64,000 bases of DNA from Blastomussa wellsi. Taxonomy: Eukaryota > Cnidaria > Anthozoa > Scleractinia > Plerogyridae. Shown piece by piece: positions 687 to 29,374 of the stretch (within the stretch, counting starts at the first letter, position 1; the number at the start of each line of letters is the position of its first letter). The stretch covers positions 5,839,820 through 5,903,819 of the forward strand of contig OX393568.1 of NCBI GenBank assembly GCA_947652115.1. Reading direction: 5' to 3'. The translations under genes were made by a program, and so were the position numbers. Under the pieces are notes generated by a model that saw nothing but the letters and a program-made list of their open reading frames with translations, did not search any database and was not told the DNA's origin.

Positions 687-1216
687 CGATTCGTGCAAAG
701 GTTCTGTCTCAGCAAGAAAACGCTAAAAATTTCACCCGCATCTTTGATCTGCGAATCCTGAAAACGTTCAAAGGAGGCTGGAGACTAAACCAGACCGGAA
801 GTGTTCAAGTTTACGGCTCAAGACAGCGAAGTCTATTGGCCAAGGCTTTCACTACAACATTTCACTCCTTGTGCGGGGTGACGCTGGAAAACGACAAGGT
901 GTACCTCATCACCGGACGCATTTGGAAAGGAAAACTTCAGCTGAATCTATGCAACTGGAATCAGGAGTGGTCTGAAATTACACTACGACAGCGCATCGGG
1001 GTCAAACGCTTCTATGGGGAAAACTGCCAGTGCCAAATTTCCCCGTGCTTCATCGAACGCTGTAAAAGATTGAACGGATGTGGGAAGTCCTCTGGAATTC
1101 ACACGAACGGCTGTGAGTGGCGCCACTCCTACTGTATTGTAAATGCCGAGGGAACCGCATGCTCGTGGCGCGAGACCGCTGAGTACAACAACTGCACGAC
1201 CAAGACATTGCCTTAA
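687..1216 (+). CDS. TIMP copy 1, exon 2 (exon 1 left of the window)
   Basis: This exon carries most of a secreted tissue inhibitor of metalloproteinases. It opens after a TTTAG acceptor with AIRAKVLSQ, the TIMP strand that follows the N-terminal Cys-x-Cys wedge, and runs 175 residues to a TAA stop. The visible cysteines follow the TIMP pattern: one in SLCGV, one in LNLCNW, then the cluster beginning ENCQCQISPC and ending in AEYNNCT. The netrin-like (NTR) N-domain and the small C-domain are both encoded here. No signal-peptide exon of the CSC...HPQ type is visible in the preceding 686 bases, so exon 1 should lie upstream of the window. The closest relative in the array is copy 2 (shared WRETAEY.NCT tail). 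The gene lies antisense inside the long synapsin intron. Function is inferred from family membership. Confidence 0.88.
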
Positions 1217-3000
1217 GAACGATACATGTTAAATAGCCACAAGACTGTAAGTAGCTCAAGGGACACTGACTCTTGAAGTTCGTGGTCAAACGTCAAGCCA
1301 GTTTCATAATGCGACGTTCCAGCATTTAAATATATAGATGAAATACTGCAAGGTGGGTTAAATCAAAACCTAACAAGCAGTTCCTTCGTGTGGTTTTGTC
1401 GGTTTTTCAGTATTTTGAGAAAATAAAATTTGGGATTTTTTCTAGTTCGAGCATGAGCACATTTTAGATTACATGGTTTAACAACGCAGATCAGTAAAAA
1501 CACAGCAATTAAAGTTTGATCAGCGTAAAACAGATCTCAACAAAAGAATGGAAACCATTGTATTTGAAGCGAGAATAGCGAGGATGGAAATGGTTCACAG
1601 CGATCGACAAGATTAACTGAAAGGGGCTATACTAGCAGTTTACTAAGGAATAAAAACACCAAAGGGGTCATACTAAACCGGGGATAAACAAGGATGGTTA
1701 AGGAAGCATTAAGTAATCTTTCCAAAAATGCGTTTAAAAGAAAACTCAAGCAAATTTTATTCAACATTTTAGGTTCAAGACTCTTATATGGATTTATCTG
1801 AGATAACACAATTGTTAAGTTCTGGTACTATTTCTTCTGATCTGTCCTCTTCTAACTAACATAAACAATAGCTGCGCCTTTAATATTTTAAATTGGGTCA
1901 ATGAAATGGTTTTTCTTTTCTTTACTGCATTTTCCCCTTTTCAATTATTAGTTAATTTCTGTTTTTGCATTCCTTTTTAATCCGGCTATTAAGGCATGGA
2001 CCGCCTAGATTAGCTATTGCTAGTTGCGGGCATGCCCTTTGTTGTAGCATTGTGATGGAAGATTGAGACGGATTAAAATGACAAATTTTAAACAGGCTAA
2101 ATGTTTCAAAATCTACAGACCATGACAACAGGCCGGTGTCAGTTCCAGTCTCGCTCTGCAAGAAACCGGGGGGGGGGGGGTAGCGGAATGAATACTCCCT
2201 ATAACAGACTATACGGGGAAACTTCGCCAGAATGAGTAACCAGTTTAAGGCTGCAAGAATAGAATAGGGGTGTCATTTCCAATCCAAAAAAGAAATGGTT
2301 AACATTTCTGTAAATGAAGATATATAAATTATTATAAAGTAAGGGTGAAGGGTTGGACCTCGGGGGAGCCTAGCTTCCTTCTTCTGTGTGAACCTCTTTC
2401 GTTTTTTGAGAACCATTTTTATTAGGAAAAAGTTTTATTAGGAAAATAGCAAGAAAGAACCCATCTAAGTGTACGTGATCGACGCGTGAATGACAGCTGT
2501 CCAATTAGAAGTTGTTCAAATTGGTTACCCGAAGCTGGCGCAAAACCAATCAAAATCGCGCGCAAAACCAATCAAAATCGAGAATTTTGTAAAAGATACG
2601 ATTATAAAGTCTGAAACAAAATGAATACAGGACGTGCTCGAGACATCATTTAGCATCTTCCTCGAAAATCTTCAGAAGCCATTTCGGAGTAGTATTGTTA
2701 CTACAAGAACGAATTTCGTGAAATTGTAACTTTCTATATACCTTGTGGGCTGTGCTAGGGCCGCAAGGTATTGTGGTAAAATGTACAGCCGCCATCTTTT
2801 TTCCTACGGCGGATTTCTTTTTCGACCCAAGAGCTCTTCTCTTTTGTGCCTAACGTAAGAAGAGAGTCTATGCCAGAGTCTGCTGTTATTGTTTTTCGAT
2901 TGAAACAATAAAACTCATCTGATTGGTTACCTTTTGAATCCATTTGATAAGAAATTTTCAAAAGTAACGTCATGTACGAGGACTCTAGGAAACTCTTAGC
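1217..3000. other. Intergenic spacer between TIMP copies 1 and 2
   Basis: No coding signal is visible. The phrase 'aaacaaggatggttaaggaagc' near 1,684 recurs in altered form downstream of copy 2 (about 10,590) and copy 3 (about 14,060). This suggests the duplication unit included 3' flanking DNA. A run of 13 G lies near 2,168. Confidence 0.5.
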
Positions 3001-3956
3001 CGTGCAGCCGTCTCCGGAAAAGTGACGTCTGCGAAACGGCGTCGTTAATCGTGTTCCAGTATCCTGCTGTTTCTCCAGAATCTGGGGACCGCTCTCTTAT
3101 TGGTTGCTTTGATAGTAGGCATTGTTAGAATCAACCCTGATTGGCTGTCATCGTAAAATACTCAACAAAATTATGCGTTGCATTAACCGTAACTCACGTG
3201 TGATTTTGTGCAGTTTATTTCGCTTGTTGTGAATCTCAACTACAGAAGTCTGGTTCAAGGTAGAGGAGAATTTCAAAGCGACAAAGTCCGCTCTGTACAG
3301 TTTGCTGAAAACTCAAGATCCCTGTGTATCAAGCAATCGATGCGTTGGAAAGCTACGGAAGTGACCCGCGGGGATTATTATGAAAGATCGAAGACGAAAT
3401 CTTACATGAAAGCGGGTTTAAATCTTTCAAGGCTGAGCTGCTAGTGAATAAGGAGTTCCAAACACTTGGAATAAACAGTGTGGAATCCTCGAAGGGCGAG
3501 TACTTTTGGATGAATCGCTTTCGTGATCGTGTACTAAAAGTTACTAAAGGAGTTTACAGGCTGCCGTATATAACTCTTGCGGTTCCTGACATTTGTCTCA
3601 ATTAGACTCGTTTTCGAGCTATTTCGCTTTGTGTTTTTTTGAATGCTTGTTATATTCTGTATAATTAGGGGGAACTTCAACTCAAACAGTCCCGTCCGAC
3701 TCCGACACTTGGCAGATCATGAGCTGTAATTTGCCATATGTTTTGCTACTCACTGTCTTTGCTAGTACTGTTTTTCTGTTTTATTTCTATTGCTTAAGCT
3801 CTCTAAATTTATTCTATTTGACTAAGCGAAATTCTTGAATTAAACCTATAATTTATGATAAATTTAATCTCGAACAGCAGGATACTGGAACACGATTAGC
3901 GACGCCGTTTCGCAGACGTCACTTTTCCGCTTTAGGAAATAGGAGACGGCTGCACG
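3001..3956. mobile_element. Non-autonomous DNA transposon with ~75-bp TIRs
   Basis: The left end CGTGCAGCCGTCTCC and right end GGAGACGGCTGCACG are inverted copies. Homology continues inward through GACGTCTGCGAAACGGCGTC to a GCAGGATACTGG block (left arm to about 3,075, right arm from about 3,873). The right arm carries a short extra stretch (tttaggaaat). The interior has no transposase-like frame. No target-site duplication is certain, so the superfamily is not assigned. Confidence 0.75.
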
Positions 3957-4513
3957 CAGGCTAGTATCCACCTGCAAATGAGCGTTTTGGTCTTGTCACA
4001 CAATCTTTTCCACCATCAGGATTTCGTGACAAGCTTCTCATGAGTAAGGCCAAATCAAGTGGACTGCTTACTCTTGATTAAGCCTGAGAAAAGTGCATAA
4101 TTCAAAAAGCATAATGTTGTGAGGGGTGTGTTCATTCGGTTTAGTGTAACAACTGCTTCTTGTGGTCACTTTCAAGAAATCGCTTCTTTCAACGGATTCG
4201 TTTAAAACAAAACTGTATTTTGACTGTATTTATCTGTTGTTTTAGTGGCTGATCAGTGTTTGTGTCGTTACACTGTCCATAGTACAAAAAAATGTAATAT
4301 ACAATATATTTGTTTTCCTCGTAGCATTGACATCGGATGGTCGATTTTATCTTTCTTTCTTTCCTCGGAGCAAGGGTCTTTCACGGAAGTTCTGTTTAAT
4401 GTACAAGGGCGGAGACACAGATTACGTGATTATGCTTGCAAGAGCATTTCAATGACGTAGACCGAGTAAATGGCCATTTCGGTGAACCGGATATCACGTT
4501 TCAAAAGTGCTGA

Positions 4514-4521
4514 TATATAAG
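4514..4521 (+). promoter_or_regulatory. TATA box candidate of TIMP copy 2
   Basis: TATATAAG lies 86 bases upstream of the copy 2 ATG, a plausible distance for a TATA-driven start with a short 5' UTR. Assignment is by position and sequence only. Confidence 0.5.
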
Positions 4522-4606
4522 TGGTGATCTTCGAGTCAGTGTTTTGACGAAGAGCAATCGGTCCGTTGCAAACCACGTTTTTTTTTACAACAAGGCAACA
4601 AAAAAG

Positions 4607-4715
4607 ATGTTTTTTCTCTTCAGCGTCGCTTTTTTGATGGCGATTGTTGCTTCCAGTAAGGCTTGCTCCTGTATGCCCTTCCACCCTCAGGAAGCCATTT
4701 GTGCTGCGGATTTTG
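4607..4715 (+). CDS. TIMP copy 2, exon 1
   Basis: 36 codons plus one base. It encodes the signal peptide and the CSCMPFHPQEAICAADF start of the mature inhibitor, ending GATTTTG before a GTGAGT donor. The ATG at 4,607 is chosen because it gives a compact signal peptide. Confidence 0.88.
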
Positions 4716-7700: not shown

Positions 7701-9458
7701 TTCGAGTATCTTATCTCATCGTACCTTATCGTTACTTCGAGTGAACGCCACAACCAAGTCATCCAAGTAAAAAAATTGGGGAACAAAAACACAGGGTCAC
7801 TTGACCCGAAAAGGTGGGAAAAAGGGGAATCTAGCAACACTAACTTTTTCAGTCCTAAGATCAAAATGATAACTCTCTTTACCATTTACCACGCATCTAT
7901 AACTCCAAATGGGAGAATTTGGCTCTATTTTAAGGAGCTACGTCACGGAAACTCTTCTTGAAAAAACTGGCAAGTTTTTTCAAGTTTGTCGTTTGTAATC
8001 GGTCTATATCGTTGTCATTCGAAACAATACTTGTATAATTTCAGCATTTTATTATCCCGTTGGTGTTTTTCGGTATTAGAAAACTCTTACTTTTAGATTT
8101 CCTTCAATTTGAAAGTAAATGGTTAAATGGCTTCAAATGCCGTGACACTGCTCCTTTAAAATGGGGGGCACGAGCCCAAATACATATTCAAATAGTGGTT
8201 CAGTTTTGTTAAAAATTACTATGCCAGTACAGTTTACTGAACCTGTAAGAGTAATGCCATTAGGAACAATCGAAAGCTTTAGATCTAAACTTCAGGCTGA
8301 CTTTTTCAAGTTTGGCCATTGTGGCTTGGAAAAAAGTAGATAACTATGAACGTTTTCCCCTTCCTTCAACAATTTTCTTTTGTGTTCTTGTGCAAGGCAC
8401 TTTACTCTTGATCATAATGCCTCTCTCCACCCAGGTGTGTAAATGGGTACTTGCGAATTTACTGCTGGGGGTAACCCTGCGATGGACTAGCATCCCATCC
8501 AGGGGAGTAGAAATACTCCCTGTCGCTTCATGGTATGGAAACCGAGATAAGCTCTGGCATGATGGGCCACTAGGCTCACATGCAGACTTTCCTTCAACGA
8601 TTTACTTGATATTTTCCTCTTGATGTTATAGGCACATTCCGTGTATGAAGGAAAATGCTATGTAATAATTTTAGTGTTGTTTTACTAAAATAAGCAGAGC
8701 AATTCCCATAACAGTGTCATTTTATTGACCTCCTGCGTGGTAGTCTGCGCAAGCGCAAGCGGAACGTTGATCTTTGTGCATGCGCTCTACTTTCTTGGGT
8801 CACGAACAAGGGTAAGAATCATCATCTCTTAGTGGGGGGAGGGGAAGGGGGGAATTATTTAAGCCACACCTGCAGCCGTTCACTGACAAACGAAAAACAC
8901 TTTCAATTTGTTCTGTTTTCAGTGGTCCGAGCAAAAGTCCTGTCCCAGGGAATAGAAGAAGAGTCACGCGTCATCGGTTTGCGAATCCTAAAAACTTACA
9001 AAGGATCATCAGCACTCAACCAGACAGAAGGCATTCAAGTTTACGGCTCAAGAAAGCGTAGTTTACTCGCCAAGGCTTACACACCTAAAAGCGCTGCGGC
9101 GTGCGCAGTGAACTGGCTCACAAATGACAGGGTATACCTGATGACCGGAAAGATTTCCAACGCAAAACTGCGACTGCATTTCTGCAGGTCGTGGGTTTCG
9201 GAGTGGGCACGGGTCAGCCAGCACCAGCGTGCTGGAGTCAGGCGTTTTTACGGCGCAAACTGCGAATGCCAGATCTCGCCGTGCTATTGGAATGACTGCA
9301 GAAAGCTGAAGGGTTGTGATAACTCCCAATACATAAACCCCAGAGACAACGACTGTCAATGGTTTAAAACCTACTGCTTGAAAAATGCTAACGGAACCGC
9401 ATGCGCATGGCGCGAAACCGCTGAGTACAAGAACTGTACGAACAACGCGATGCCTTAA
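4607..9458 (+). CDS. TIMP copy 2, complete two-exon gene
   Basis: Exons 4,607-4,715 and 8,923-9,458 join in phase (G|TG gives Val) to a protein of 214 residues, close to the usual 200-225 of TIMPs. Residues 1-19 are a hydrophobic signal peptide ending in SSKA. The mature protein begins with Cys20 in CSCMPFHPQ, so the free N-terminal cysteine and Cys-x-Cys motif that chelate the protease zinc are present. The rest forms the NTR-like N-domain (VVRAKVLSQ, VYLMTGKI, FYGANCEC) and a Cys-rich C-domain. There are 14 cysteines, two more than the 12 of vertebrate TIMPs. N-glycosylation sequons NQT, NGT and NCT are visible. The expected role is secreted inhibition of matrix metalloproteinases. The 4.2-kb intron holds a foldback element and a SINE. 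Pairing of these two exons is inferred from order and phase. Confidence 0.88.
5649..6140. mobile_element. Foldback element in TIMP copy 2 intron
   Basis: AGTCAAATCGAAGCTTCAAC at the left matches the inverse of the right end GTTGAAGCTTCGATTTGACT. Both arms continue into C-rich (left) and G-rich (right) tracts with CCCCCGGG. Both outer flanks carry GTAC. No coding capacity. Confidence 0.78.
6141..8379. other. TIMP copy 2 intron, unannotated part
   Basis: No exon, RNA gene or clear repeat boundary could be supported here. A G-rich run lies at about 7,058-7,075. Short open frames look random in composition. Confidence 0.4.
8380..8587 (+). repeat. SINE family A, 5'-truncated
   Basis: It matches the SINE body at the start of the window: 'tgttcttgtgcaaggcac', 'gtaaatgggtact', 'taaccctgcgatggactag', ending in 'gatgggccactaggctcac'. 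The tRNA-like head is missing. It lies inside the copy 2 intron. Confidence 0.75.
8923..9458 (+). CDS. TIMP copy 2, exon 2
   Basis: It begins after TTTTCAG with TG-GTC-CGA (VVRAKVLSQ) and ends at a TAA. It encodes residues 37-214, including the NANGTACAW and AEYKNCT tail shared with copy 1. The 5' extension of the open frame before the acceptor is intron. Confidence 0.9.
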
Positions 9459-12036: not shown

Positions 12037-12148
12037 ATGACTGCAATTTTCTATTCTATAGCGGCACTGTTGTGTTTGGTAACCGTGAATGAAGCGTGTT
12101 CCTGCGAAAGCCAACATCCACAGACGAAATTTTGCAATGCGGAGTTTG
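12037..12148 (+). CDS. TIMP copy 3, exon 1
   Basis: 37 codons plus one base. Signal peptide MTAIFYSIAALLCLVTVNEA, then the Cys-x-Cys start, ending GAGTTTG before a GTAAGC donor. The MTAI start is shared with copies 4 and 5, which supports the choice of ATG. Confidence 0.9.
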
Positions 12149-13929
12149 GTAAGCACGAACTTGTCGAAGCCTTTGACATGTATTTCTCGTTTCAGCGACT
12201 TCACAGTCCTGTGTACCCTGGGAACCAGAGGATTTTATCTCTTTGATGGTGGCTACGCCGCGAAAAAAACCCTCTGGCACCCAGGGTAAACCCTGGGCTA
12301 TAATCAGCTATAAACTTCAAGAAGAAAAGGAACTCGCCCGGTTGTTGACGACATGTACACTTCGAGTTTCATAGCGAATGTGAGATAATATCTCGTCACA
12401 ATCATCTTGTTTTCAAATCATACTCTCGCTCGAGCCAATTTTTGTTTCTCTCGAGGTGCGAGAAATCGGTTGACATTGTACTGACGGTAATTATTCTAGT
12501 TGACTGCAGTACTTCGAATCGAATACATGTACTGCGTAATATATGAGTGCGAAGCATCTTGTCACGCTGATCTTGTTTTCATGTTTCCCAAAGGTCAGAA
12601 GAATCCCGATTTCTCAAAAGATACCTCATAGGCCGGATTGGATCTAACCGGCGCGAAAACGACATTTTCCCAGAATTTTCACAACCGTGACCCTCTCTCG
12701 ATATTCAGATTCTCATATTTTTCCGCTTTCTGCGGTCTCACTGGCTCTGTTTTAGAAGCAGCTCCACTTCATCATTTGTTCAAACAATTACGAGTCAGCC
12801 TTGCTATTGCCCTGAATAAGTTCTGGTCGGGTTTTACGACATTATTTACCTATTCCTTGTTGACGAAGACAGACATGCGAAACTATCAAGAGAAGCAAGC
12901 CTGTAAAAAAGAAAAGATAAAAGAACACACACCACCTGCTGACGCACGGGAGCACTTTACTTGCATATGCGCATGAAATTGTGGATGGCCGAAAACGATT
13001 CAAAAACGCTACGTGTGGACGCGAATTTTTGGAAAACCGGTGAAGGGTCGTTTAATAATGTGACCCGCGAGTAGCTATCGTTTTCCATGGACATGGTTTC
13101 GCTCCTCGCCAACTATCAGCCGCAGAATATTTAATTTTAGTGTGCGATGATCTGTGATTTTATCTTTGAGTATGTACATGTCTATAATTTGGTTTTATCG
13201 CTCGAAACGTCAGCTCTTGAATCTCTTTACGGTGGCCAATTCACATTATCAACCCAGTTGATAAAACCAAATTATATTGTTATACTTCCCACCGACGCAG
13301 CTCCACAGTTTCTTTAGAAACTTACCTCCTCTATGTACATGTCTGTTTACTTCAAAACAAACTTTCAACTCTCTCCTTTTTCAGTGATCCAAGTTAAGGT
13401 TTTCTCGCAAGAATTGAAAAACGGGAGTTTTCAGGGCATTCGGGTCTACAATATACAAATCCTACACATCTTCAAGGGGGCGTCAAGAGTCAACCAGAGC
13501 GAAGGCACTCATGTGAACGGCTCCGAGCTCTTCGCCAAGGCTTACACTGAAAGGTACGACGCAGGGTGCGGCGTGTGGCTCCTAAATGGATCGGTCTACC
13601 TTCTGGGAGGATATTTTAGAGAAGGAAAACTCTGGCTGGACTTATGCAGTTTAAACGAGAGGTGGTCCGATGTCACTCCCGGTCAGCGCGTTGGAATCAG
13701 TCGCATTTACGGCCAAAACTGTGATTGCAAAATTACAACGTGCTACAAAAATAAATGCGGTAAGCTGGAGGGATGTCATTACGATGACTTAAAATGGCGT
13801 CATTACTACTGCGGTAAAAATGCCGACGGCACCGAATGTTCATGGCACAGTGCCGCGAACTACACGAGCAAGGCGACGAATATGACCTTTTATTTCGTTC
13901 TGCTGCATTTGCTTAGTTTTCTGTATTAA
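12037..13929 (+). CDS. TIMP copy 3, complete, with hydrophobic C-terminal tail
   Basis: Exons 12,037-12,148 and 13,385-13,929 join G|TG in phase to a 218-residue TIMP. Residues 1-20 form a signal peptide ending VNEA, followed by CSCESQHPQTKFC, so the metal-chelating Cys-x-Cys start is intact. The NTR core (VIQVKVFSQ, VYLLGGYF, IYGQNCDC) and C-domain follow. The mature protein has 12 cysteines, the classical TIMP number. It ends with NYTSKATNM and then a run of about 14 mainly hydrophobic residues (TFYFVLLHLLSFLY) up to the stop. A small-residue region followed by a terminal hydrophobic stretch resembles a GPI-anchor signal, or a short membrane tail. This is an inference; ordinary TIMPs are soluble. 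The intron is 1.2 kb. Copy 4 shares its body and tail region. Confidence 0.9.
12217..12288. repeat. Short inverted repeat in TIMP copy 3 intron
   Basis: ACCCTGGGAACCAGAGG and CCTCTGGCACCCAGGGT can pair across about 38 bases. It may be a small foldback element or the remnant of one. Confidence 0.55.
13183..13310 (+). repeat. Dispersed repeat with truncated hammerhead-like end
   Basis: CGCTCGAAACGTCAGCTCTTG at 13,199 and the next roughly 100 bases recur almost unchanged at 17,023-17,133. A 17-base perfect inverted repeat (TATAATTTGGTTTTATC and its complement, 13,183-13,199 and 13,260-13,276) frames it. CGAAACGTC is the 3' half of the hammerhead core reported in Penelope-like retroelements; the 5' half is missing here. 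The family assignment is an inference. Confidence 0.55.
13385..13929 (+). CDS. TIMP copy 3, exon 2
   Basis: It starts after TTTTTCAG with TG-ATC-CAA and ends TAA at 13,929. It holds the NTR strands, the NCDC cluster, the C-domain and the hydrophobic tail described for the gene. Confidence 0.9.
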
Positions 13930-14896: not shown

Positions 14897-15620
14897 GTAA
14901 CGGGTAATTTTAATATCGAAGTAAACTGGTTTACCTAGATTTTCTGGTTTACGAGACGCTCATGCAGGCAAGAGAGTGAATTGACATTCTGATTTCCTCT
15001 GCTGGATTGACAGCGCTACAATGACTGCAATTCTTTGTTCAATAGCGGTACTGTTGTGTGTGGTGACCGGAAGTAGAGCGTGTATCTGCCCTCGCCGGGT
15101 CCATCCACAGCAGCATTTTTGCATTGCAGATTTTGGTTAGCACAGACTCGTACCCTGTCCTAATTTACGTCCCGTGTGTTTCTCGTTTTGTGCGTCTTCA
15201 CAGTCCCTCAATCTCAACAGCATGGAATGGGCAGGCTACACAAGCCTCCGAAAATTTGAAATTCTATTGAAAAAAGAAACTGCTTCTAGTTGACAGATCT
15301 ACGAATTTAGTAGTGAATGAGCAATGATTGACTACGAAGTATCGTCGCGGTGATCTTGTTTCCATACCACACAAAGAGGATTGTGGAATGCGTGTCTGGA
15401 GCCTCGCTTTCCTAAAACAGGGCCCGATAACTCGAACCAAAACTCGTTTGAGTCTTGCATTTGCTTCACTCAGTCAAATACTGTAATATCAAACCCTGTT
15501 TTGGTTTACTTTCGTTTCCCTTCCAGGAGGTTCGAGAAATCCGGATTCCACTGTGCTGACGTCATAGCTACAGGTGTCATGTCAGTAGTTGAGTACAAAG
15601 TTCCGGTTCAAGGCAGCAAT

Positions 15621-16036
15621 TTAAAGTGCACCTAACCCCAAAATATTTTTTTCGCTAAAATAAACCTTTGCACCAGTTTGAAACGCATTGCAACTTTCGT
15701 TTCTCCTTTTTACCAAATTATGGCTATTTATAGCATTCAAACGTTATGAAAAACTGGGCATCATTTGTTACACGGCCGAGTCAGAAGGGGCGTGGGTCTA
15801 TTCCTGATTTGACGTCACAAAATGATTTGCATCACATCAACTCTTTGTAAACATGCATGCAAATCAGTTTCTGACGTCAAATCGGGAATAGACCCAGGAA
15901 CAAATGATGCACAGTTTATCGTAACTTTTGAATGCTATAAATAGTCAGAATTTGGTAAAAAGGTGCAATGCGTTTCAAATTGGTGCAAAGGTTTATTCTA
16001 GCGAAAAAAAATATTTTGGGGTTAGGTGCACTTTAA
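15621..16036. mobile_element. TTAA-flanked foldback MITE, ~416 bp
   Basis: TTAA flanks both ends. Directly inside are inverted termini AGTGCACCTAACCCC / GGGGTTAGGTGCACT, and the arms stay similar for well over 100 bases (TTTGCACC, GAAACGCATTGCA, AATAGACCC). A TTAA target duplication is typical of piggyBac and Kolobok elements. No transposase frame is present, so it is non-autonomous. Confidence 0.88.
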
Positions 16037-16999
16037 CGTTCAAGTAGTGTATGCGGTTATTTAAATGTAAATTCTCTTAAAAACAGATTTTCGCATTGAA
16101 AACCTATGCGCGTGCTTGTTATTTACTGTGTTTTAATAATGAAGACTAAAAGAAAACTGCCAATTCGGAGAGGAGAATTCAAATTGTTTTGTATTGATAG
16201 ACCTTTTGACAGAGACCCTCGTCAAATGCTAATTGTTTTCACTTGTTTTCAGAGCAAGCACTTGTCTTCATGAGAAACTTTTACTATTCTGTTTTCAGTG
16301 ATCCTTGCAAAGGTTTTATCTCAGGAATTGAACAACGACAGTCGGGTCTTCAATATGCAAATCTTGCAAACCTTCAAGGGGACGTCAAGAATCAAACAGA
16401 CACGCATGTAAACGGCTCCGAGCAGAGCAGTCTATTTCCTAAGGTTTACACTGGAAAAAACAGTGCGGCGTGCGGAGTGTGGCACCCGACTAACACTGTG
16501 TACCTTCTCGGTGGATACATTTGGAAAGGAAAACTCTGGCTGACCTCATGCCGCATCGCCCAGAATGCTAGTCTTTTGCGACATGAACTTACAGCGCCTT
16601 ATTTCACGGCGCACGGCATAATAATTTGCGTGCTCAGAACAAGTCAATTGTAATCGGCTAACAGACTCAGCTTTGGGAATACTCGTGCACTGCCGCTACT
16701 GTCAATCAAACGGTTAGAGTTGCTTTGGGAATACTCCTGCATTCCCTCTGCTGTCAATCAGACGGTTGGAAGTGCGTAACAAGTTTAAAAGTGTGATAAA
16801 GTGCACAATAGCTGTCTTATTAGTTCCCGCAACCTATTCAACCTATTCTAAAACCTATTCAGTAAAAGAGTTCAAAAGATTTTAATGACCTCAATAGAAG
16901 TTAAATCTCTTTTAAACTTCCTAAACGTTATTTACAAGCAAACAAGAGTGCGTTAGCCACGCTTTACAAAATAATCTTCGCAATTCTGATTAGCGTTTA

Positions 17000-17109
17000 A
17001 CTGAGAAGCGACGAAGGGCTAACGCTCGAAACGTCAGCTCTTGAATCTTTTTACGGTGGCCAATTGACATTATCGACCCAGTTGATAAAACCAAATTATA
17101 TTGTTATAC

Positions 17110-17133
<24 letters not shown>
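17000..17133 (+). repeat. Penelope-like repeat fragment with degenerate hammerhead motif
   Basis: CGACGAAGGGCTAACGCTCGAAACGTC contains a hammerhead-type arrangement: GACGA, a GGGC-TAAC-GCTC helix II, GAAA and GTC. The canonical CU before GACGA reads GC here, so the core is damaged. The following ~100 bases match the repeat at 13,199. It lies inside the insertion that splits TIMP copy 4 exon 2. Confidence 0.5.
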
Positions 17134-17140
<7 letters not shown>

Positions 17141-17811
17141 TCACGTGGCCTGAATTGGGTTGCAACAAGGATGTAAACACGTTAGCCGAATTGGTCTATG
17201 GAAGCTTTAAAAGCCGCTATATTTCTTACCAAAAATAAAATACCTAAAACCTAAAACCTAAACCTTACCAGCTCACGTATGTGAGCGCGTGCAAGGCAAA
17301 GTTTGTATTATCCGCGCGCAAATGATGATGCAGTTCATTGACCAATCAGAATGGCGAACGGAGCGGACTTGGCCAGATGTTTCCTACGAAGTGAGTAAAC
17401 ATCTGGGTACGAGATCACCTGCGTGTTGGAGTCAGCCGCGTTTACGGCGGAACTGCGAATGCCGAATTTCACCACGCTACCGCGGAAATGACTGTGGAAA
17501 GCTAAAGAGGTGTCACTACGATGTCTTGAAATGGCGTCATTTCTACTGCGGTAAAAATGCCGACGGTACAGCATGTTCACGGCGCATTGTCGCGAACTAC
17601 ACGAGCAAGGCGACGAATATGACCTGCGGTTATTTTGTTGTATATGAGAACCAAATCAATGCGCGTACAAACCAAGTGGTTTATCAGCCTATAAACCATA
17701 GTAACTTGTGGTCTATTGCTTAATTCACTGTTTATAAGCAGTATCATTTGTGAGCCGTGATGTAACATACTCTTTTAGGTTTGAAAATGTGAGCTGGGTA
17801 AGGTAAAGGCC

Positions 17812-18555: not shown

Positions 18556-18850
18556 AGAGCGCAGGAAACGTGAAACTGGTGGACAGTGCGGGAAAAAGTG
18601 AAATCGGTACAGTGGAAAGCGCGCGAGAACATGAAACCGGGGAAAAACGCGGGAAAACGTAAAGCCGGTCAAAAGGGCGGGAAAACACGAAACCGTGGAA
18701 ACACGCGGGAAAACGTAAAACCGGTCGCTAGCGCGGGAAAATATGAAACTGGGGAAAAACGCGGGGAAACGTAAAACCGGTCGCAAGCGCGAGAAAACAT
18801 GAAATCGTTGAAGTGGAAAGTGCGGGAGAACGTAAAACCGATGGTGAACG
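18556..18850. repeat. Minisatellite, GCGGGAAAACGTAAAACCGGT-type units
   Basis: Imperfect tandem units combine GCGGGAAAACGTAAAACC with GCGAGAAAACATGAAACC and GGTCG-type joins, repeating through about 300 bases. The long open frames on both strands here result from the repeat, not from genes. Confidence 0.75.
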
Positions 18851-19358: not shown

Positions 19359-19470
19359 ATGACTGCGATTCTTTACTGTGTTACGGTGCTGCTATGTGTG
19401 GCAACGGTGAATGAAGCGTGCAGGTGCGCCGAGCTACATCCGCAGACAAACTTTTGCAATGCAGATTTTG
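19359..19470 (+). CDS. TIMP copy 5, exon 1
   Basis: 37 codons plus one base, ending GATTTTG before a GTAAGA donor. The signal peptide begins MTAI, as in copies 3 and 4. Confidence 0.9.
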
Positions 19471-21812
19471 GTAAGATTTTATTGAGTTTCATAACTTTCT
19501 TTTTCTCGTTTTCACCTTATCACACGGTCTCACACGAGATGAAGACGTTGGACAGGATCGATTAATCGAGGGAATGTGGAAACTTTCCGCTCGTTGGCAA
19601 GTCTTCGATTTACGTAGTACCAGCCGGATAGTTAGCGAAAAATAGACTTGAAAGCCACGAATACCCCTTTTCCATTGACTCACGTATTGATAATAGCTCC
19701 CTAGAAATCGAGACCACGTTTCTCTTTTCTTTTACTCTGGTCCCAAAGGTTTTCTTTTTTCTTCTAAAGCGAAGAAAGTCATTGCGGCAGTCGAAGCCAG
19801 TGGGGACGTTTTCTCCCTCGCCGCTTCGCGACTCGTTTTCGCTGCTTCGCGAACCGTTCGCTGCTTCTCGACTCGTTTTCGCCACTTAGCGACTCATTTT
19901 CGCCGCTTCGCGTTTCTTTGATTGAGAAATATAAAAAGAGAAAACCTCTGAAAACAGAGTACATTTCTTTCATTTTTCAATTCAAAGCCACAATTCTCTG
20001 TCCATTTGTTGACTAATGCGCTGTTATTTCACTCAGATGACGTTTTGCGTTGCGTATAAAAGAAAAAAATATCGGTTTCCTTGTCAATCCCAAAAGAAAA
20101 TTAAGAAGATGAAACACATGTCACAAAAAATCCAAGCTTATTTTTTTCCTTTACCACAAGGTACCACGAGATATATTAAGGACAACATTAAAGTCGTGAC
20201 GGAATTTAGAAAACTTATCTTTTGGAGTTGAAGCCCTACCCGTGATATCCGCTGATCGGACGATAATCTGTCTCAAATTAACTCAAAGGGTTCCTGCCCT
20301 TCAAAGCTGTTATGTTTACGGAATCGTCTGAATATACTTGATGCCAGTGAATTACGGAAATTGTTGTTTGAACGGAAGGTATTTAACGAAAATGTCTTTC
20401 AGTACTGTATCACAGCAACCGCTTTTGTTTGAAGGTTTGACAATGGCCACTTCAGAAACTTTTCTCGTCTTTTCTAGTCATTTCACAGTTGCTATTCTGA
20501 ACAAAGAGCGCAAGGATTTGAGACTTTAGAGAAACAAGCTTACAATTTTGCGAATCTAAGTAAAAGAATAAAACAATGGTAAATTTAACATAAGTCTTAA
20601 GGAACATTATCTTGCACTGTATGATACTCTTCATAAATAGGTTTAACCTGAAATATTACATTATATTCTTCGTAGCTGGTTCAAGATTATTTTATAAACT
20701 CTAGATGTTGTGTGTGCGTGCATGTTATTGTTATGTCTATGTGTATGACAGTACATTCATTCGCTATATTGTACCTCCGCTGTAAACATTTAATTTAATT
20801 TATTTGATCCGGCGCCCTGACATTTTTTACTTTTTAGTTATTTCAGGGTGCTGGTACCCTAAAATTACTACATTTATATTTAATCTCTGTTTTTAATTTA
20901 ATTGATTTAAATCTCTCGGGTACAATAAACGTCGTTGTTGTTGAAGAAGCATTAATTTAATTCCCTTTAATCTATCAGTATATTGGTTAACCCAGTATCC
21001 CCAAATGATATAATTCAAAATTACCCAATTTGAGGAAACCGCAGTTTGAAGATGTTTGAAGTTGTGACCGATATCAGTAACAAACGAATAAGAGAGTTTA
21101 GTGTTTTTCTATAAGCAGACCAATCACAATGGAGGTAGAAAATTTACCACTGATGAAAAAACTTCGATTCATTTGATCTGAACTTTTCTAGGGATTGGTT
21201 AAAAAACGTTGGGTGGCCCCGGTTGAGTTAGTTGCACTACAATATTTATCAGCGCATTTTTCTTTTTTCACAGCCATCCGCATGAAGGTTTTGGGCGAGT
21301 CCCGGAACAATGGAAGCCGAGTTTACAAACTCAAGGTCTTGAAGGCCTACAAAGGAGCTTCAGAAATTTCCCGAATTGCGGCAAGTCAAGCAAAACGCAC
21401 AGGAAAACGCATGAAGAAGTACAAAACGGTTTATGTTACGACCGACCTCGATTCCGCTGCCTGCGGGGTGTTTCTTGACCGAGCTAAAATCTACCTCCTG
21501 CTCGGGTACATCGACGGGCAGACGTTGACCATTGATTCGTGCCAGTGGCATAGGCAATGGACAGAGATCACTGCTCAACAACGCCGCGGGTTCAAGAAGC
21601 TTTATGGCCGAAACTGTGCATGCCGCATCGAGCAGTACTGCTATAAAAGACCGCCCGAGACGTGCGATAACATGATTAATGGGTGCAATGTACGGGATCC
21701 TTACAATGTGGCCTATTGCAAGAGGAATACCGCTTATTGTAAGAAACTAGGGAATGAATGCAAGTGGATCGTTGATAAAACGTCTTTCAAAAAGTGCTTT
21801 GAGAATAGCTAA
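19359..21812 (+). CDS. TIMP copy 5, complete two-exon gene
   Basis: Exons 19,359-19,470 and 21,274-21,812 join G|CC in phase (Ala) to 216 residues. Residues 1-20 are the signal peptide (MTAILYCVTVLLCVATVNEA), followed by CRCAELHPQTNFCNADF. The Cys-x-Cys wedge is kept, with Arg as the second mature residue where vertebrate TIMPs have Ser or Thr. TIMP residue 2 points into the protease S1' pocket, so this change may alter specificity (inference). The body (AIRMKVLGES, IYLLLGYID, LYGRNCACRIEQYC) is the most divergent of the array. It has 14 mature cysteines, a lysine-rich segment at about residues 75-87 (KRTGKRMKKYK) and a different C-domain. It lies closest to synapsin exon 5. Its 3' end is tandemly duplicated immediately downstream. 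Confidence 0.9.
19818..19912. repeat. Short tandem repeat, GACTCGTTTTCGC(T/C)GCTTCGC type
   Basis: About four imperfect units of 20-24 bases built from CGCTTCGCGACTCGTTTTCG follow one another inside the copy 5 intron. Confidence 0.6.
20640..20945 (+). repeat. Possible retroposon 3' tail
   Basis: An AT-rich stretch ends with 'acaataaacgtcgttgttgttg', which looks like a 3' terminus with a short simple-repeat tail. No coding part is seen, so this call is tentative. It lies in the TIMP copy 5 intron. Confidence 0.3.
21274..21812 (+). CDS. TIMP copy 5, exon 2
   Basis: It starts after TTCACAG with CC-ATC-CGC-ATG (AIRMKVLGES) and ends TAA at 21,812. The final 72 bases of the exon lie within a tandemly duplicated unit. 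Confidence 0.9.
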
Positions 21813-22092
21813 GACTTCGAATTTAAGTTGTCTTGGCGTAGTTTTGTTGTAGGTCTGTTTGTCTGTATTCATTTTGTAAACTGTATCCATCAATTTAGAT
21901 GGAAACTGATCTCGTTAAGAAACTGGGGAATGAATGCAAGTGGATCGTTGATAAAACGTCTTTCAAGAAGTGCTTTGAGAATAGCTAAGACTTCGAATTT
22001 AAGTTGTCTTGGCGTAGTTTTGTTGTAGGTCTGTTTGTCTGTATTCATTTTGTAAACTGTATCCATCAATTTAGATGGAAACTGATCTCGTT
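21741..22092. repeat. 176-bp tandem duplication covering TIMP copy 5 3' end
   Basis: 21,741-21,916 and 21,917-22,092 are nearly identical; I find only about two differing bases (CTAG/CTGG and AAAAAG/AAGAAG). The unit starts within the last codons of TIMP copy 5, includes its stop and continues into the 3' flank. The near identity points to a recent event. Confidence 0.9.
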
Positions 22093-22140
22093 AGACTTAA
22101 TAGTATCTAGTTGATAGCTATTCGTTAACCAATAACACGA

Positions 22141-23296: not shown

Positions 23297-23434
23297 GCAA
23301 ATACAAAGACAATCCACTATTATTACTTTCGATTATTCTTAAAATTTAATGCTTACTATTGAGACCAATTTCAGATTTTTACGCATAAAACCATTTTACC
23401 TACCAGCAAGCAAAAGCTTTTCTTCAGCACTTAC

Positions 23435-23524
23435 CATTTCCTTGTAATTTGGATAATACGCCTGCTCAACCAATGGGAATTCAGTCTTTCCCAGTCTCTT
23501 CTGAAGTTGGATGAGTTGAGCGAA
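23435..23524 (-). CDS. SYN: Synapsin exon 5
   Basis: 30 codons in phase 0, from FAQLIQLQKRLG to YYPNYKEM. It is flanked by a CCAG acceptor and a GTAAGT-type donor (GTAAG). Everything left of it in the window is intron 5. Confidence 0.93.
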
Positions 23525-26500
23525 CTGGTAACGAGAGGGCAATGATTTCAAGAGATTGCATTGCTAATAAATGCAGTAATCTCAAAGGCCGTAAAACTGG
23601 GATTTCATGTTAATTAATAGAGCAGTTGCATCAACTTACCACCCAAGGTTTCTCTGCGAAATTGTAAATCGATGTTAGCGAGTTTATACTGGGTACGTTG
23701 CCAAACTGTAGCCCTAGAAGAATGCTTCTGTAGTCCTCTTTAGGCCCAATGCCCCGCACGCTCTGCCGTACAAGAACAAAATCGGGCCGAAAAGATCTGC
23801 AAACAAATGCGTGTAAATCAGCAATCCCCGATTCGTTCTATCAGACTTGCGCGCAGGGATTCATGGTAGTTGTATATACGTTATTCAAGATGGCCGCCAT
23901 GTTTGTTTTCACATTGTAATGCAAATTACGCACGTGATTTGTGAGGGGGCAAACAAGCCTTATCCAGTGACTATTTTAAACTATTCCTTATAATGAAATC
24001 ATTATTCCATAACTTGTCTCTCAAATGTGGCTTCACCGCAGATACTTCACTATTTAGACCGTCGGATTTTCCGAGAAACGGCATTATTTCAATGTTTGCG
24101 CCCTAACAGCGTGGCTTATTTGCATTACAATGCGAAAACCATCATGGCGGCTATCGTGAATATGGTCTATTCATCACGCGCACGACATGTTAGAGACTTG
24201 GCGCGCGAAGTTGAGTACAACGACCATGATTCCCTGCGCTCACGTCTCATAGAGGGAATCAGCCATTCAAAGCTAAGCATGCGGATGAAAGGAGGATGAG
24301 ATCGCGTTGGATCCAAGAACCAACGGTTCGGGTTGGAACGCCAACCGAGTTTAGGTCATTGTGTTGAGCTTTATACCCCATTCACACCAATTCTAAAGCA
24401 CGTTTAAAGTCTGTTTAGTTAAGCGCGGTTTAAAATTGTTTTCTTTATAGAAGTTTCCAACAGCTATTTGTCATCTTCGCAGTTTATAACTGTTTTCTTT
24501 GTGGAAGTTTCCAACTGATATTTGTCGTCTTTGCAGAGGGTCGACGACGGAACTGACGATTGACAGAATGCCTCTCCTAGTTGAAATAGAATTGATAATA
24601 TGTGATGATCACCGAGTGCCCTTTCAACTGGTAATTTATCGAAATCCTCTGCCAATGACTGGAAGAGACTCGAAAACCAACGTTAGAGCTTTCTTAAATC
24701 CTATGTAAAATTCAGTCTTTCGATTTCCGCCGATTTCTTTTTTTGTTTCGCTGAGCCTGGTTAAACTAAGCATGTTCACTGGTATGAATGGGGGAATGAG
24801 ACACAACCATATAGACGTGAAAACTGCAAAGGATCGCGAACGATAAGCAGCCAAAAATAAACTGTAACACAAACATAACTGCAAGGCTGATACTACGTGA
24901 AAAAATTGACTTTGCGAGACAACAACCCGACAGAAACCGATAAAGCAGGGCAGCAACCGTGGACAGCTGTTTCATTCTTATTGGAACTCGTCAGCACGGT
25001 GTAGCAGTTTTAAATGAAACCAGCCAGAAAGCCAGCTCAAATAAAATGCAACAAAACCCATGCTTTACCAAGTTCCGTACTTTGAACCCGTCCGCATCAC
25101 GTGGCGGCGCGTGATTCGGGGGGCGCACAGGTTCAAAGTACGGAACTTGGTAAAGCATGGATTTTGTTGTATTTTATTTGAGCTGGCTTTCTGGCTGGTT
25201 TCATTAAAAACTGCTACACCGTGCTGACGAGTTCCAATAAGAACGAAACAGCTGTCCACGGTTGCAGCCTTGCTTTATCGGTTTCTGTCGGGTTGTTGTC
25301 TCGCAAAGTCAATTTTTTCACGTAGTATCAGCCTTGCAGTTATGTTTGTGTTACAACCATATAGCTAGTTAACAGATAAATGTTTTGGGAAGGCATCGCC
25401 TTGGTGAAGAGTACTTTAAAATTAAAATTTCTTTACCTGACTACAACAGTTCCTTCGCGATAGACCTGGATATCCACCATTGTGCCGCTATCAGAATATG
25501 AAGCCAGATTTAAGTCTGCAAACTGAGCCTGTAAATGAGAAGACCAAAGCAATGACACAGACGATCACGAAGTCACCGTAATGGACTGGGGACGCGCTGC
25601 GCGTTTGTGTCGCCATAAATTTCGCGCCAATCTAGTAAGCGGGAGAGAATCGCATTCACGTCCCCAGAGCCGATTGTCCCTCTTAGCCGGCTGGACCTGT
25701 GCACGAGGAACAAGTGGCTCTGGGGACACACGATTTGATTCGCTGAAATCAAACAAAGGGAGTCCAATTACATCAGCCGTTTTAAAATCCTTTATCGTTA
25801 GCCCGTTTAAAACGGCTGATGTGATTGGACTTCCATTGTTTGATTTCAGCGAATCAAATCGTGTGTCCCCAGAGCCACTTGCGCCTCGTGCACAGGCCCA
25901 GCCGGCTAAGAGGGGACAAGCGGCTCTGGGGACGAGAATGGAGAGAATCGCCGGTTTCTGGGTTGAGTAGTGCCCACTCTTCCCACTCGGTTTTACATGT
26001 TAAGAGAAAGTACGCGATGCTCGCATTTTTATTCCGCGCAGCACCTATTCAGCCTTGGTTTCATTTCTCATCCTTTCAGATGAAAAGCAACAGTTTCCTC
26101 GATCATCCGTTATATTGAAGTTGATCAGAATCAGGTTCATGGAACGTTTTCTTTCCCTTATCACCACGTTCCACCAAACCAAACAACCCAAAAAAAACCA
26201 TTGCTTTGAGAGGAGTTATATGACAGTCAAAGGGTGAAAGCGGGTGTTTCTTACACACTTTTTAAAACGAAAACATCGCCTACATTCAGAACACACTACT
26301 TTTTAGTTTAGATCCAGTCCGTACTGCGCAGTCTCAGGGATTTGTTTTCATTTTTGTTGTGAATTCGTTGATACGTTACACCTCGGTAATATAGCGTACA
26401 TAAAGTTTTTTTTAGGTTGTTTTGTTCACGAATCTAAACGTCGCCAGACACAAAAAGCAATCAGTGACAATTTACAAACTTTTCCCAGAGTACTTACAGC

Positions 26501-29374
26501 AATCATACACTTGACGCCGCGTTGTATACAATTTGAAAAAACCTAGAAGGTGAACTTTATCTGCCCAAGCCACGCACAAACTATTTAAAAAGAGGTTTTG
26601 GTTCCTTTAGCTTCCAGGGGGGGGGGGGGGGGGGGCACTAATATGACACAATCGGCCCCAAGAAAGGAGGGATGCTAATTCTATTGGGTACTTCAAAAGA
26701 AAGATCTTAAATCGAATCTCTGGCCTATCGGATTACTACAAGGCAATCATCTAAAACAGAGTTTAGGCTTTGTTTAACTATTAACAGTGTGTAAATAAAT
26801 AAAGATTGATTGATTGAATGCTTGAAGAGTTGAAACGCCGAGGTTCTTCTAATCAATGTAAGTGATTGTAAGGATATCTGACGTTAATAATGAAGAAACA
26901 GGTAAGTTTTTCCTGCAATTTTTCGTTGGTTAATGAACATTTCTTAACTTCGTGTAAGACTCGCATAATCACAGCATGCGGAGTTTGCGCAGTAAAGGTT
27001 CAGTGTGCATACGAGCCTGGTGGCCCATCAGGCTAGTCTATCGCAGGGTTACTTTCCCCCCCCCCCCCCCAGCATTAAATTTGCCAGTACCCATTTATAC
27101 ACCTGGGCGAAGCTCGAAGAGAGGCACTGTGAGAGTAAAGTGTCTTGCCCAAGAACACAACGCAGTGCCCTGCCTGAGGCTTGAACCCAGATCGCCCGAT
27201 CCAGAGTCCATCGCACTAACCATTAGGCCACCGTGCCTCCCACGGAGATTGCGCAGTACGGACTGAAAATCAGATTCAGATGTTTAGATTTAGATTGTTT
27301 TGCAGTATTGGTTCAGTGAAATCTAAGTAATATAATACTATAACAAAAATAAGGAAAATAGACAGTAATAAAGTTAAACCAAAGTAACTTATGCTTTTGA
27401 GTTCAGGTAACTGAACAGACACAAGGAACCCACAAGAAGATACTACTAAAAATGGCAACAAATGGCAGCTCTAACTCTAATATTATTACTTTTAAGAAGC
27501 TTACTTGTCACCTCTAGAGCCCAGCCACTTTATTATTAGACATGAAGGGATTTCATTTTACTTCGAGAGACCTCATGGGCTTATCGCAGTCCTGGTGTAA
27601 ATAAATTTGGCGGGAAAAGTTACCGGCTGCTCATCGTGGCGGGAAAACGGGGATCAAAACCAAATATGGAATTGGTTTCAGAATTCTGATTGGCTGCTTT
27701 TTCTAGACGAACCAAATGCTCTCAAAGATGTACAACTTTTCAATGTGCCCATTGGTCCTTTTAATTTATTTTTTAATTTAAAACAAAGACACATTAAAAA
27801 GACACTATGTTGTAAGACTTTTCAAGTCTGTTCGCGTGATGACAAAAGAAAGCATCGAAAACCGCACTCATTAAGTTCTGCTCGATCAATCACAACTTTG
27901 CTAGATATGAAGAGTATTCTGTGAAATTAAAACATGCAAATAGGCACGAAATCTGCGACTTATTAATTTTTCAAGGGAGTAAATTTGTACTTTTTACCTA
28001 ACATTGGTGCTAAGCCAACTAATTAAAAATCACACCTAAATTTTGATAAGTACACTTTTCTCTGAAGGCGCTAAATTGGATAAAAAATGGCTCTCGTTCA
28101 CGCGTTTTTAACAGTTTAGTGAAGTTTGCATAAAGAGCGGGAACTAAATGCTAATTTTTGGTTGTCGCGCTTTCTGATTGCGTCCTTGCGACCTCATTAG
28201 CCGCGCTAACATAACCGATGTGACATTTCTTAATTTCTGTATTTGTTCCAACCGTCCAAACCACATCCATGGCTAAAGATAGCAAATAAGGAATGAATGA
28301 AAAACCTCAAGCGAAAAAGAATCGGGGGATTTCTAATTAATTGCGTCCGTTGTACTTGAAATGTCCCTGGCATATGCAGACCTCAAGAACCCAATTACAA
28401 TGAAATGGAAATTTTCTGAGGGCGAGATTAGAATATAAAAGAAAAACACAACAGTGTTTTCTGTCTGTAGACATTTGTATTCACTGCGTGTTGTCGCGGA
28501 ATGGTTTTGTGTAAAGGTACCTGAATACTTAACAGCTTTAATACAAACATGATAAAGTGGCAATAAAAAATATCATGCACAATACCTGCTCTACTCTGAC
28601 ATCGTAAACTCCTCCATGGAGTTGTCTGCCTTTGAATATCTTTGCCCTGAGGAGAAAAACACAATATAGCTATTAGTTAATAACTGTCTATCCTTGTCGA
28701 AGGCGAGAAATATTGAACTCGGTTAAATAAAATATACTAGTCACAAAGTTTAAGGCTTTAGCTTTGATAAATGATTTCACTGAGTTCCTTTATGATTCCG
28801 ACTAGATAACTGTTTTATATTGATTTATTTCAATACTGGGACAATTTAAAACAAGACCCGTTAGTAAATTGTTACTTTTCCGCGAAATATGATAAGGGAA
28901 GCATGGAATTGCGTTCTACAAACCTCGAGAAACAACATTAAAATGTCGCTCTGTTTGATCAAATTGCAGGTAGCTGGATAGCTAAAAAACGGCTGTCATG
29001 TTGTAAATATTACGATCAAAAGTTGCAATCTTTGATCTACGATCCTTGCGGCTCCGTATTAAATTTATGCCAAAAAATACTCGGCAGATAAAAGGAATAT
29101 ATACAGACGAATTTGTATCCCAGCAAAACGCGAGTTTGGCTAAAATATCAGACAACGCTCACCAGTCAGTGTCCGGAGAATCGATTACCAGAAGAATTTT
29201 CATCTTTTTGGCGGCGGGCGATCCCCTCGGAGGCATCGCAGAATCATCTTCCTTCGATTCGGTTCTCGGGCTTGTTGTAGAAGTGTTAGCAGTTGTTCGT
29301 TCGGTGTCTCGCGATGGGCGGAGGTTACTCAAATTCACGCCACCGGATATCTTTAACTTCTGCAAAAACTCCAT
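23435..29374 (-). CDS. SYN: Synapsin, exons 1-5 (gene continues left of the window)
   Basis: Synapsins are synaptic-vesicle phosphoproteins whose C domain folds like ATP-grasp enzymes. Five minus-strand exons join in phase: 29,374-29,163, 28,646-28,586, 25,528-25,437, 23,796-23,640 and 23,524-23,435. Together they read MEFLQKLKIS..., a Ser/Thr/Pro-rich linker, KMKILLVIDSPDTDWAK, FKGRQLHGGVYDVRVEQ, DLNLASY, VVVRSFRPDFVLVRQ, SINSLTSIYNFAEKPWV, then FAQ...EFPLVEQAYYPNYKEM. These match the vertebrate synapsin C domain nearly block for block, and the exon boundaries fall where I recall vertebrate ones. The start ATG at 29,374 gives a short A-like region; no RRxS kinase site is visible there. The remaining C domain (VVVKxGHAHSG onward) is not seen and should lie beyond position 1. 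The last intron in view exceeds 23.4 kb and carries the antisense TIMP array. Confidence 0.93.
23640..23796 (-). CDS. SYN: Synapsin exon 4
   Basis: 157 bases carrying SFRPDFVLVRQSVRGIG, then LGLQFGNVPSINSLTSIYNF and AEKPWV. The donor is GTAAGT and the intron to exon 5 is only 115 bases. Confidence 0.93.
23828..24262. mobile_element. Foldback element in synapsin intron 3
   Basis: The left end CGATTCGTTCTATCAGACTT and a GCGCAGGGATTCATGGTAGTTGTA block are answered in inverse at the right by TACAACGACCATGATTCCCTGCGC and GTCTCATAGAGGGAATCAG. CATTGTAATGCAAAT / ATTTGCATTACAATG pair further in. A related half-element (CCCTCTATGAGACTTGCG) lies at about 42,711. Confidence 0.72.
24864..25354. mobile_element. 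Large foldback, two ~225-bp arms
   Basis: Arms 24,864-25,088 and 25,130-25,354 are inverted copies around a 41-base GC-rich centre. GTAACACAAACATAACTGC opens the left arm and GCAGTTATGTTTGTGTTAC closes the right arm. The arms differ by only a few bases. ACAACCATATAG occurs outside both ends (24,803 and 25,353). No coding frame. It lies in synapsin intron 3, 82 bases from exon 3. Confidence 0.85.
25437..25528 (-). CDS. SYN: Synapsin exon 3
   Basis: 92 bases encoding AQFADLNLASYSDSG, then VDIQVYREGTVVV and the first two bases of an Arg codon. Acceptor TTACAG, donor GTAAAG. Confidence 0.93.
25653..25940. mobile_element. MITE, second CATTCTCGTCCCC-family copy, with TSD
   Basis: Left end CATTCACGTCCCCAGAGCC, right end GGCTCTGGGGACGAGAATG. 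Inner arms pair CACACGATTTGATTCGCTGAA with its inverse. GAGAGAATCG occurs at 25,643-25,652 and 25,941-25,950, giving a clear target duplication. It lies in synapsin intron 2. Confidence 0.85.
25951..27004. other. Synapsin intron 2, unannotated stretch
   Basis: No exon or gene is recognised. A run of 19 G occupies 26,617-26,635. 'aaataaataaagattgattgattg' near 26,795 looks like a retroposon 3' tail with a short simple repeat. Confidence 0.4.
27005..27243 (-). repeat. SINE family A, near full length
   Basis: Read on the minus strand it starts GGAGGCACGGTGGCCTAATGG with an A-box-like TGGCCTAATGGTTAGTGC, has a B-box-like GGGTTCAAGCCTCAG, then the family body through CTGGGCGAAG... and TAACCCTGCGATAGACTAG. 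This is the best full copy in the window. A C-run (G on the minus strand) sits in the body at about 27,057-27,070. Confidence 0.85.
27244..28585. other. Synapsin intron 2, unannotated stretch
   Basis: AT-rich sequence without a supported gene, RNA or repeat boundary. Confidence 0.4.
28586..28646 (-). CDS. SYN: Synapsin exon 2
   Basis: 61 bases. The first base completes the Trp codon of TDW, then AKIFKGRQLHGGVYDVRVEQ. Acceptor CTCAG, donor GTATTG. Confidence 0.93.
29163..29374 (-). CDS. SYN: Synapsin exon 1
   Basis: It begins with ATG at 29,374 (MEFLQKLKISGG), contains a 35-residue Ser/Thr/Arg-rich linker and ends KILLVIDSPDTD plus TG before a GTGAGC donor. The in-frame codon three positions upstream is GTG, so 29,374 is the first ATG. 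Confidence 0.88.

Follow-up and report, generated by a model that had tools for sequence, protein, structure and literature searches.

Whether TIMP genes lie nested inside a synapsin gene in a stony coral, how old such a nest would be and what has become of the nested copies are the questions raised by a 64,000-nucleotide stretch of the Blastomussa wellsi genome (C12:5839820-5903819; hereafter the window, and positions without prefix count from its start). A first-pass annotation of the window had proposed that a synapsin gene on the minus strand carries, within its intron 5, an array of TIMP genes on the plus strand. For the present analysis 49,820 bases to the left of the window were added, and the synapsin gene was annotated as far as exon 10. 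The antisense nesting could thereby be shown on one contig, with six intact-frame TIMPs (Y, X, A, B, C and E) and one TIMP pseudogene (D) in the closed intron. The locus is best read as an ancient SYN-TIMP nest that was expanded in place and whose TIMPs would form a set of secreted protease regulators, a reading to which we assign a probability of about 0.85.

The Synapsin Host Gene

The following parts of the synapsin gene were located.

29374-29163, minus strand: synapsin exon 1, coding part; start codon at 29374, ends in phase 2
28646-28586, minus strand: synapsin exon 2; GT/AG borders, profile and structure matches of the joined exons
25528-25437, minus strand: synapsin exon 3; GT/AG borders, profile and structure matches of the joined exons
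23796-23640, minus strand: synapsin exon 4; GT/AG borders, profile and structure matches of the joined exons
23524-23435, minus strand: synapsin exon 5; ends in NYKEM, phase 0
1-23434, minus strand: part of synapsin intron 5 in the window; a further 30,133 bases leftward, 53,567 nt in total
C12:5809686-5809624, minus strand: synapsin exon 6, LITPKFPVVVKVGHANGGYGK; 30 kb left of window position 1, same contig
Down to C12:5804453, minus strand: synapsin exons 7-10, left of the window; GT/AG borders throughout

Exons 1 to 5, as proposed in the first-pass annotation, are bordered by GT/AG and yield, when spliced in frame, 204 amino acid residues. This join matched the Pfam family Synapsin (N-terminal domain) at 1e-42 and also the first 45 positions of Synapsin_C, and its best solved relative was rat synapsin I (1.4e-56). 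The motif of exon 6 was found on neither strand of the window, and a tblastn search of the window with a mammalian query from exon 6 onward gave a best E of 0.53, the exon 4-5 control being matched at 1.4e-21. Because exon 6 is absent from it, the window alone cannot prove the nesting. The exon carrying VVVKxGHAHSG, which had been expected to the left of position 1, was found there as VVVKVGHANGG; it lies on the same contig C12 and outside the TIMP array, and intron 5 is therefore closed at both ends. Within this intron 5,000 of the 53,567 nt read N, none of them in the window, which is free of N. When exons 1 to 10 were joined (380 residues), positions 1-202 of the 203 of Synapsin_C were matched at 2.1e-90, and the alignment with synapsin II (2.2e-124) ran unbroken over the exon 5/6 joint.

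Genome-wide searches covered the assembly, which comprises 124 contigs and 367.8 Mb. Both synapsin families matched this locus only, with 2 and 4 exon matches, which gives one synapsin locus. An origin of the synapsin exons as chance matches or remnants was ruled out by their in-phase splicing, by the completion of the C domain by exons 6-10 and by the sole genomic locus; judged by sequence, the exons are intact and do not belong to a fragment. The phosphorylation motif of the A domain, R-R/K-x-S/T, was found in none of exons 1-5, which does not exclude a synapsin, because the synapsin of Nematostella has been reported likewise (PMC2825198).

The TIMP Array within Intron 5

The nested copies stand head to tail on the plus strand in the order Y, X, A, B, C, D, E. 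Their parts are given below.

C12:5821578-5822167, plus strand: TIMP Y exon 2, left of the window
C12:5831121-5833073, plus strand: TIMP X, complete gene, left of the window
C12:5836538-5836646, plus strand: TIMP A exon 1, left of the window
687-1216, plus strand: TIMP A exon 2; acceptor at 687, PF00965 1.9e-25
4607-4715, plus strand: TIMP B exon 1; signal peptide, CSC
8923-9458, plus strand: TIMP B exon 2; PF00965; human TIMP-2 match for B 2.5e-15
12037-12148, plus strand: TIMP C exon 1; signal peptide, CSC
13385-13929, plus strand: TIMP C exon 2; PF00965; hydrophobic tail at the end
15021-15135, plus strand: TIMP pseudogene D exon 1; CIC
16299-17655, plus strand: TIMP pseudogene D exon 2 remnants; frameshift, about 0.85 kb of inserted sequence
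19359-19470, plus strand: TIMP E exon 1; signal peptide, CRC
21274-21812, plus strand: TIMP E exon 2; PF00965

Apart from Y, of which exon 2 was found, the genes share a layout of two coding exons separated by one phase-1 intron, exon 1 encoding the signal peptide and the N-terminal wedge and exon 2 the remainder. Protein searches bore out this part of the annotation as they had the synapsin part, the TIMP frames matching PF00965 down to 1.9e-25; for exon 2, scores in A, B, C and E were 71 to 90 bits at a cut-off of 23.1. A signal peptide-like N-terminus together with Cys-x-Cys is present in TIMPs A, B, C and E.

The first-pass annotation had placed the whole array within 687..29374, which holds for B to E and for exon 2 of A; exon 1 of A and the genes X and Y lie left of the window. 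Within this span, intact frames were seen in A, B, C and E, and D (15021-17655) is a pseudogene, in which, by comparison with C, a 7-base deletion shifts the frame and about 0.85 kb of inserted sequence splits exon 2. A repeat in this insert recurs in the intron of TIMP C with 96% identity over 121 nt.

TIMP C ends in TFYFVLLHLLSFLY (13890-13926), a tail of 13 hydrophobic residues with a mean hydropathy of 1.92, which could be a glycosylphosphatidylinositol (GPI) signal or a membrane anchor. In A, B and E the final 13 residues have mean hydropathies of −0.92 to −1.09, that is, no such tail. A structure predicted for exon 2 of TIMP E had a pLDDT (predicted local distance difference test) of 40.4 and was discarded.

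Two repeats were observed in the same intron. A tandem duplication of 176 nt at 21740-22091, with 99% identity, has copied TIMP E at its 3' end together with the adjoining downstream flank, and a short tandem array with a 28-nt unit lies at 18618-18812.

TIMP Genes outside the Nest

In the genome-wide search with PF00965, 16 candidates were scored and at least nine were above the cut-off; six of these are the intact nested copies and the following three lie elsewhere.

C12:5957725-5959713, minus strand: L017, non-nested TIMP; PF00965 match at 5957782
C12:5995786-5997278, plus strand: L018, non-nested TIMP; PF00965 match at 5996697
C2:6063926-6067476, minus strand: L019, non-nested TIMP; PF00965 match at 6063980

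The same family gave zero matches in 14 control genomes, and a scan of viral contigs for relatives yielded 67 pattern stretches, 0 of them confirmed. The three outside genes have two exons and a phase-1 intron, as in the nested copies, and each is without Cys1; L017 and L018 share contig C12 with synapsin, at a distance of 89-128 kb from its exon 1. The genome total thus comes to one synapsin, at least nine intact TIMP genes and one TIMP pseudogene, the synapsin and TIMP counts being lower bounds because only the best candidates were scored.

History of the Nested Copies

Exon 2 nucleotide identities were compared among A to E, X and Y standing outside this comparison. The highest value was found for the neighbours C and D (78%), followed by the neighbours A and B (66.0%) and, nearly equal to the latter, by the non-neighbours B and D (65.6%), from which we infer that the array grew by local duplication. 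The intact nested proteins are 32-55% identical, and the duplications would therefore be old. In the pairs that could be measured, the nonsynonymous rate (dN) was below the synonymous rate (dS), with dN and dS of 0.35 and 1.30 for A-B, 0.46 and 1.46 for A-X, and 0.49 and 1.04 for B-C, which fits constraint.

Judged by exon 1, TIMP C had E rather than B as its nearer relative (+0.237, 95% interval 0.103 to 0.363), and in exon 2 it was closer to B than to E (−0.152, bootstrap interval −0.203 to −0.098). These opposed affinities may have arisen by exon exchange or by opposite rate shifts; exon exchange is not claimed, because a single tree with opposite long branches would give an equal pattern.

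Three observations weigh against an ancient nest expanded in place and kept under constraint. Synonymous sites were saturated in 10 of the 15 nested pairs, so that constraint is weakly measured. A tree of eleven proteins, in which one of the eight inner branches was well supported, namely that of the mammalian TIMP pair, gave no resolution on the nested copies as one clade; the grouping of L017 and L018, both on C12, was supported at 87/82. Exon 1 of TIMP Y was not found in repeated searches, and part of the intron reads N.

Antiquity and Persistence of the Nest

Candiani et al. (2010; PMC2825198) reported a reverse-oriented TIMP inside synapsin in the animals examined there, nematodes excepted, with a host-intron position conserved across the animals analysed, and concluded that the SYN-TIMP arrangement dates from very early metazoan evolution. 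That report gives a single nested TIMP for Nematostella, two for Ciona and ten for sea urchin. For the human genes the host introns are intron 5 according to PMC1867822, where the context is described as conserved in Ciona. At the level of intron number, the coral agrees with this; the first-pass annotation had given the vertebrate host intron as 5 or 6, depending on numbering. The same annotation had taken the nested pair to predate bilaterians; this is supported by the present data and is not new, having been inferred in 2010 from Nematostella (PMC2825198).

The Nematostella vectensis locus described in PMC2825198 resembles that of Blastomussa in its reverse-nested TIMP in a synapsin intron, in the extra TIMPs elsewhere and in a synapsin with no clear A domain; it differs in having one nested TIMP, against six intact copies and one pseudogene here. 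The Strongylocentrotus locus is alike in holding ten TIMPs within one synapsin intron, but it belongs to a deuterostome, and no independent TIMP is reported for it in the account given in PMC2825198, against three here. In the vertebrate pairs SYN1/TIMP1, SYN2/TIMP4 and SYN3/TIMP3 (PMC2825198, PMC1867822) the TIMP likewise lies on the opposite strand of synapsin intron 5, whereas each synapsin has one TIMP and each nested TIMP has five exons, compared with two coding exons in the coral. Searches of openly licensed papers turned up neither a cnidarian synapsin intron with an array of TIMPs nor paired TIMP cysteine loss. The antiquity of the SYN-TIMP nest is already in print, and this array and its cysteine pattern may not be. 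The locus would add an in-nest TIMP expansion in a cnidarian to the reports from sea urchin and Ciona, and indicates that repeated duplication is possible inside a nested pair of great age with the host gene unbroken.

Why such a nest persists is a separate matter. Physical lock-in alone, that is, one TIMP entry followed by local duplications and rare escape, in the absence of common regulation and of any selection on the nesting itself, is compatible with the anatomy described above, and as the cause of persistence we consider it slightly favoured. It agrees with the statement in PMC7308558 that there is no evidence for coordinated TIMP3/SYN3 expression or function, with the six of at least nine intact TIMPs that remain in the nest and with the decay of one nested copy (D). 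It is harder to reconcile with the three TIMPs outside the nest, which mean that escape or independent origin happens, while the nest position is conserved over the animals of PMC2825198.

A second, independent insertion of a TIMP into the same synapsin intron in this lineage is improbable. The TIMPs are too divergent to prove orthology, as PMC2825198 says likewise of invertebrate TIMPs, and most forks of the eleven-protein tree are open; the host gene, the intron number and the opposite strand nevertheless match the vertebrate and Nematostella reports (PMC2825198, PMC1867822). An assembly artefact, in which collapsed or expanded haplotypes would have ended up side by side in a single contig, deserves scarcely any credit, since, for all the N in part of intron 5 and the nearly identical duplicate at the end of TIMP E, contig C12 measures 26 Mb, the window contains no N and the intact nested proteins are far too different for haplotypes.

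Cysteine Pattern and Proposed Function

Cysteines are given in TIMP-2 numbering, with mature starts set by eye. The bonds of the N-domain are C1-C72, C3-C101 and C13-C126, the pairs being taken from PMC9409782, where they stand in TIMP-1 numbering. Cys1 chelates the active-site zinc of the protease, whose S1' pocket accommodates residue 2 (PMC3679795, PMC9409782).

All six N-domain cysteines, including Cys1-x-Cys3, are present in TIMPs A, B, C and E, and TIMP Y, of which exon 2 was seen, keeps C72, C101 and C126. Of the 12 conserved cysteines 11 were aligned in A, B, C and E, the C-domain C146 aligning in none of them, with mature totals of 12-14. At residue 2, A, B and C carry Ser, E carries Arg and pseudogene D carries Ile.

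X, L017, L018 and L019 are without C1 and C72. In addition, C3 is lost in X, L018 and L019 and C101 in X and L018, while L017 retains both C3 and C101; in a separate HMMER alignment the first mature cysteine of L017 corresponded to residue 3 of TIMP-3 and the cysteine of its CNW to C101. L019 aligned without C101, yet a cysteine stands two columns further along, immediately before the conserved Trp, and the cysteine count of its mature part is odd, which makes the C101 of L019 ambiguous. The status of C1 and C72 agrees in all eight genes with exon 1 seen, that of C3 and C101 in seven of them (L019 being the ambiguous one), and C13 and C126 are kept in all eight. Mature proteins have 14 cysteines in A, B and E, 12 in C and L017, 10 in X and L018 and 11, an odd number, in L019. 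Perfect pairing of the losses is not claimed, given the Trp-adjacent cysteine and the odd count of L019.

In an ancient nest expanded in place, each TIMP would be transcribed on its own, and the synapsin transcript would be spliced across the entire nest. A, B, C, E and probably Y would be secreted and would block metzincin proteases through zinc binding by Cys1 and the entry of residue 2 into S1'. The differences at residue 2 and the tail of C may reflect differences in target or in site of action, and the array would constitute a set of secreted protease regulators for matrix remodelling that diversified after local duplication. Expression around wounds has been described for a TIMP of Nematostella (PMC4229989), and work on wound healing in Calliactis counts three TIMPs among its genes of interest (PMC5288695). 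According to work cited by PMC9409782, TIMP-1 acquired selectivity for MMP-2 when Thr2 was changed to Arg in combination with the TIMP-2 AB loop; a GPI-anchored engineered form of TIMP-1 is described in PMC9409782 as well.

Since zinc chelation depends on Cys1 and residue 2 occupies S1', the four Cys1-less proteins are predicted to be non-inhibitory in the classical way, and X, L017, L018 and L019 are accordingly called TIMP homologues here and not classed as inhibitors. A precedent is Ad-TIMP-1 of a parasitic helminth (PMC3679795), likewise a predicted non-inhibitor of MMPs with N-terminal features unconserved; it differs from the present case, in which Cys1 and Cys72 are jointly missing in four paralogues of one genome.

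The paired pattern predicts two TIMP classes, zinc-chelating and non-chelating, and so offers a directly testable split of the TIMP family of one genome. A tentative extension, which we hold to be possible but would not expect to prove right, is that the nest retains classical zinc-chelating TIMPs and that the second class of homologues arose via stepwise, pairwise loss of N-terminal disulfides. The steps would be the loss of Cys1-Cys72 in L017, the additional loss of Cys3-Cys101 in X and L018, and the loss of Cys1, Cys3 and Cys72 in L019 with the Cys101-adjacent cysteine kept. As Cys13 and Cys126 are retained, members of this class would still fold and be secreted, as NTR proteins serving some other function. 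Within the nest, E with Arg2 and C with its possible anchor tail would on this reading be natural counterparts of the engineered TIMP-1 forms.

Hammerhead Ribozymes and Other Features of the Window

The remaining features observed in the window are as follows.

24863-25355, within intron 3 of synapsin: a pair of type I hammerhead ribozymes facing each other
25218-25262, plus strand: type I hammerhead, 39.4 bits (gathering threshold 34)
24956-25000, minus strand: type I hammerhead, 34.6 bits (gathering threshold 34)
34277-34836: tandem array with several open frames and repetitive translations
46254-47105, minus strand: open frame of 284 residues, BEN domain 4.7e-07
62703-63257, plus strand: frame resembling an exon of a major facilitator transporter, MFS_2 match 2.4e-16

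The type I hammerheads, like the missing phosphorylation motif of the A domain, fit a cnidarian genome and are suggestive at most; hammerheads occur also in molluscs and others. In Acropora millepora, type I hammerheads were described in units of about 225-245 nt, and similarly in other stony corals (PMC7229834). The palindromic arrangement seen here is odd, because the animal retrozymes described in that source are direct tandem repeats: the pair in synapsin intron 3 lies in an inverted repeat with arms of 233 nt that are 97% complementary and 27 nt apart.

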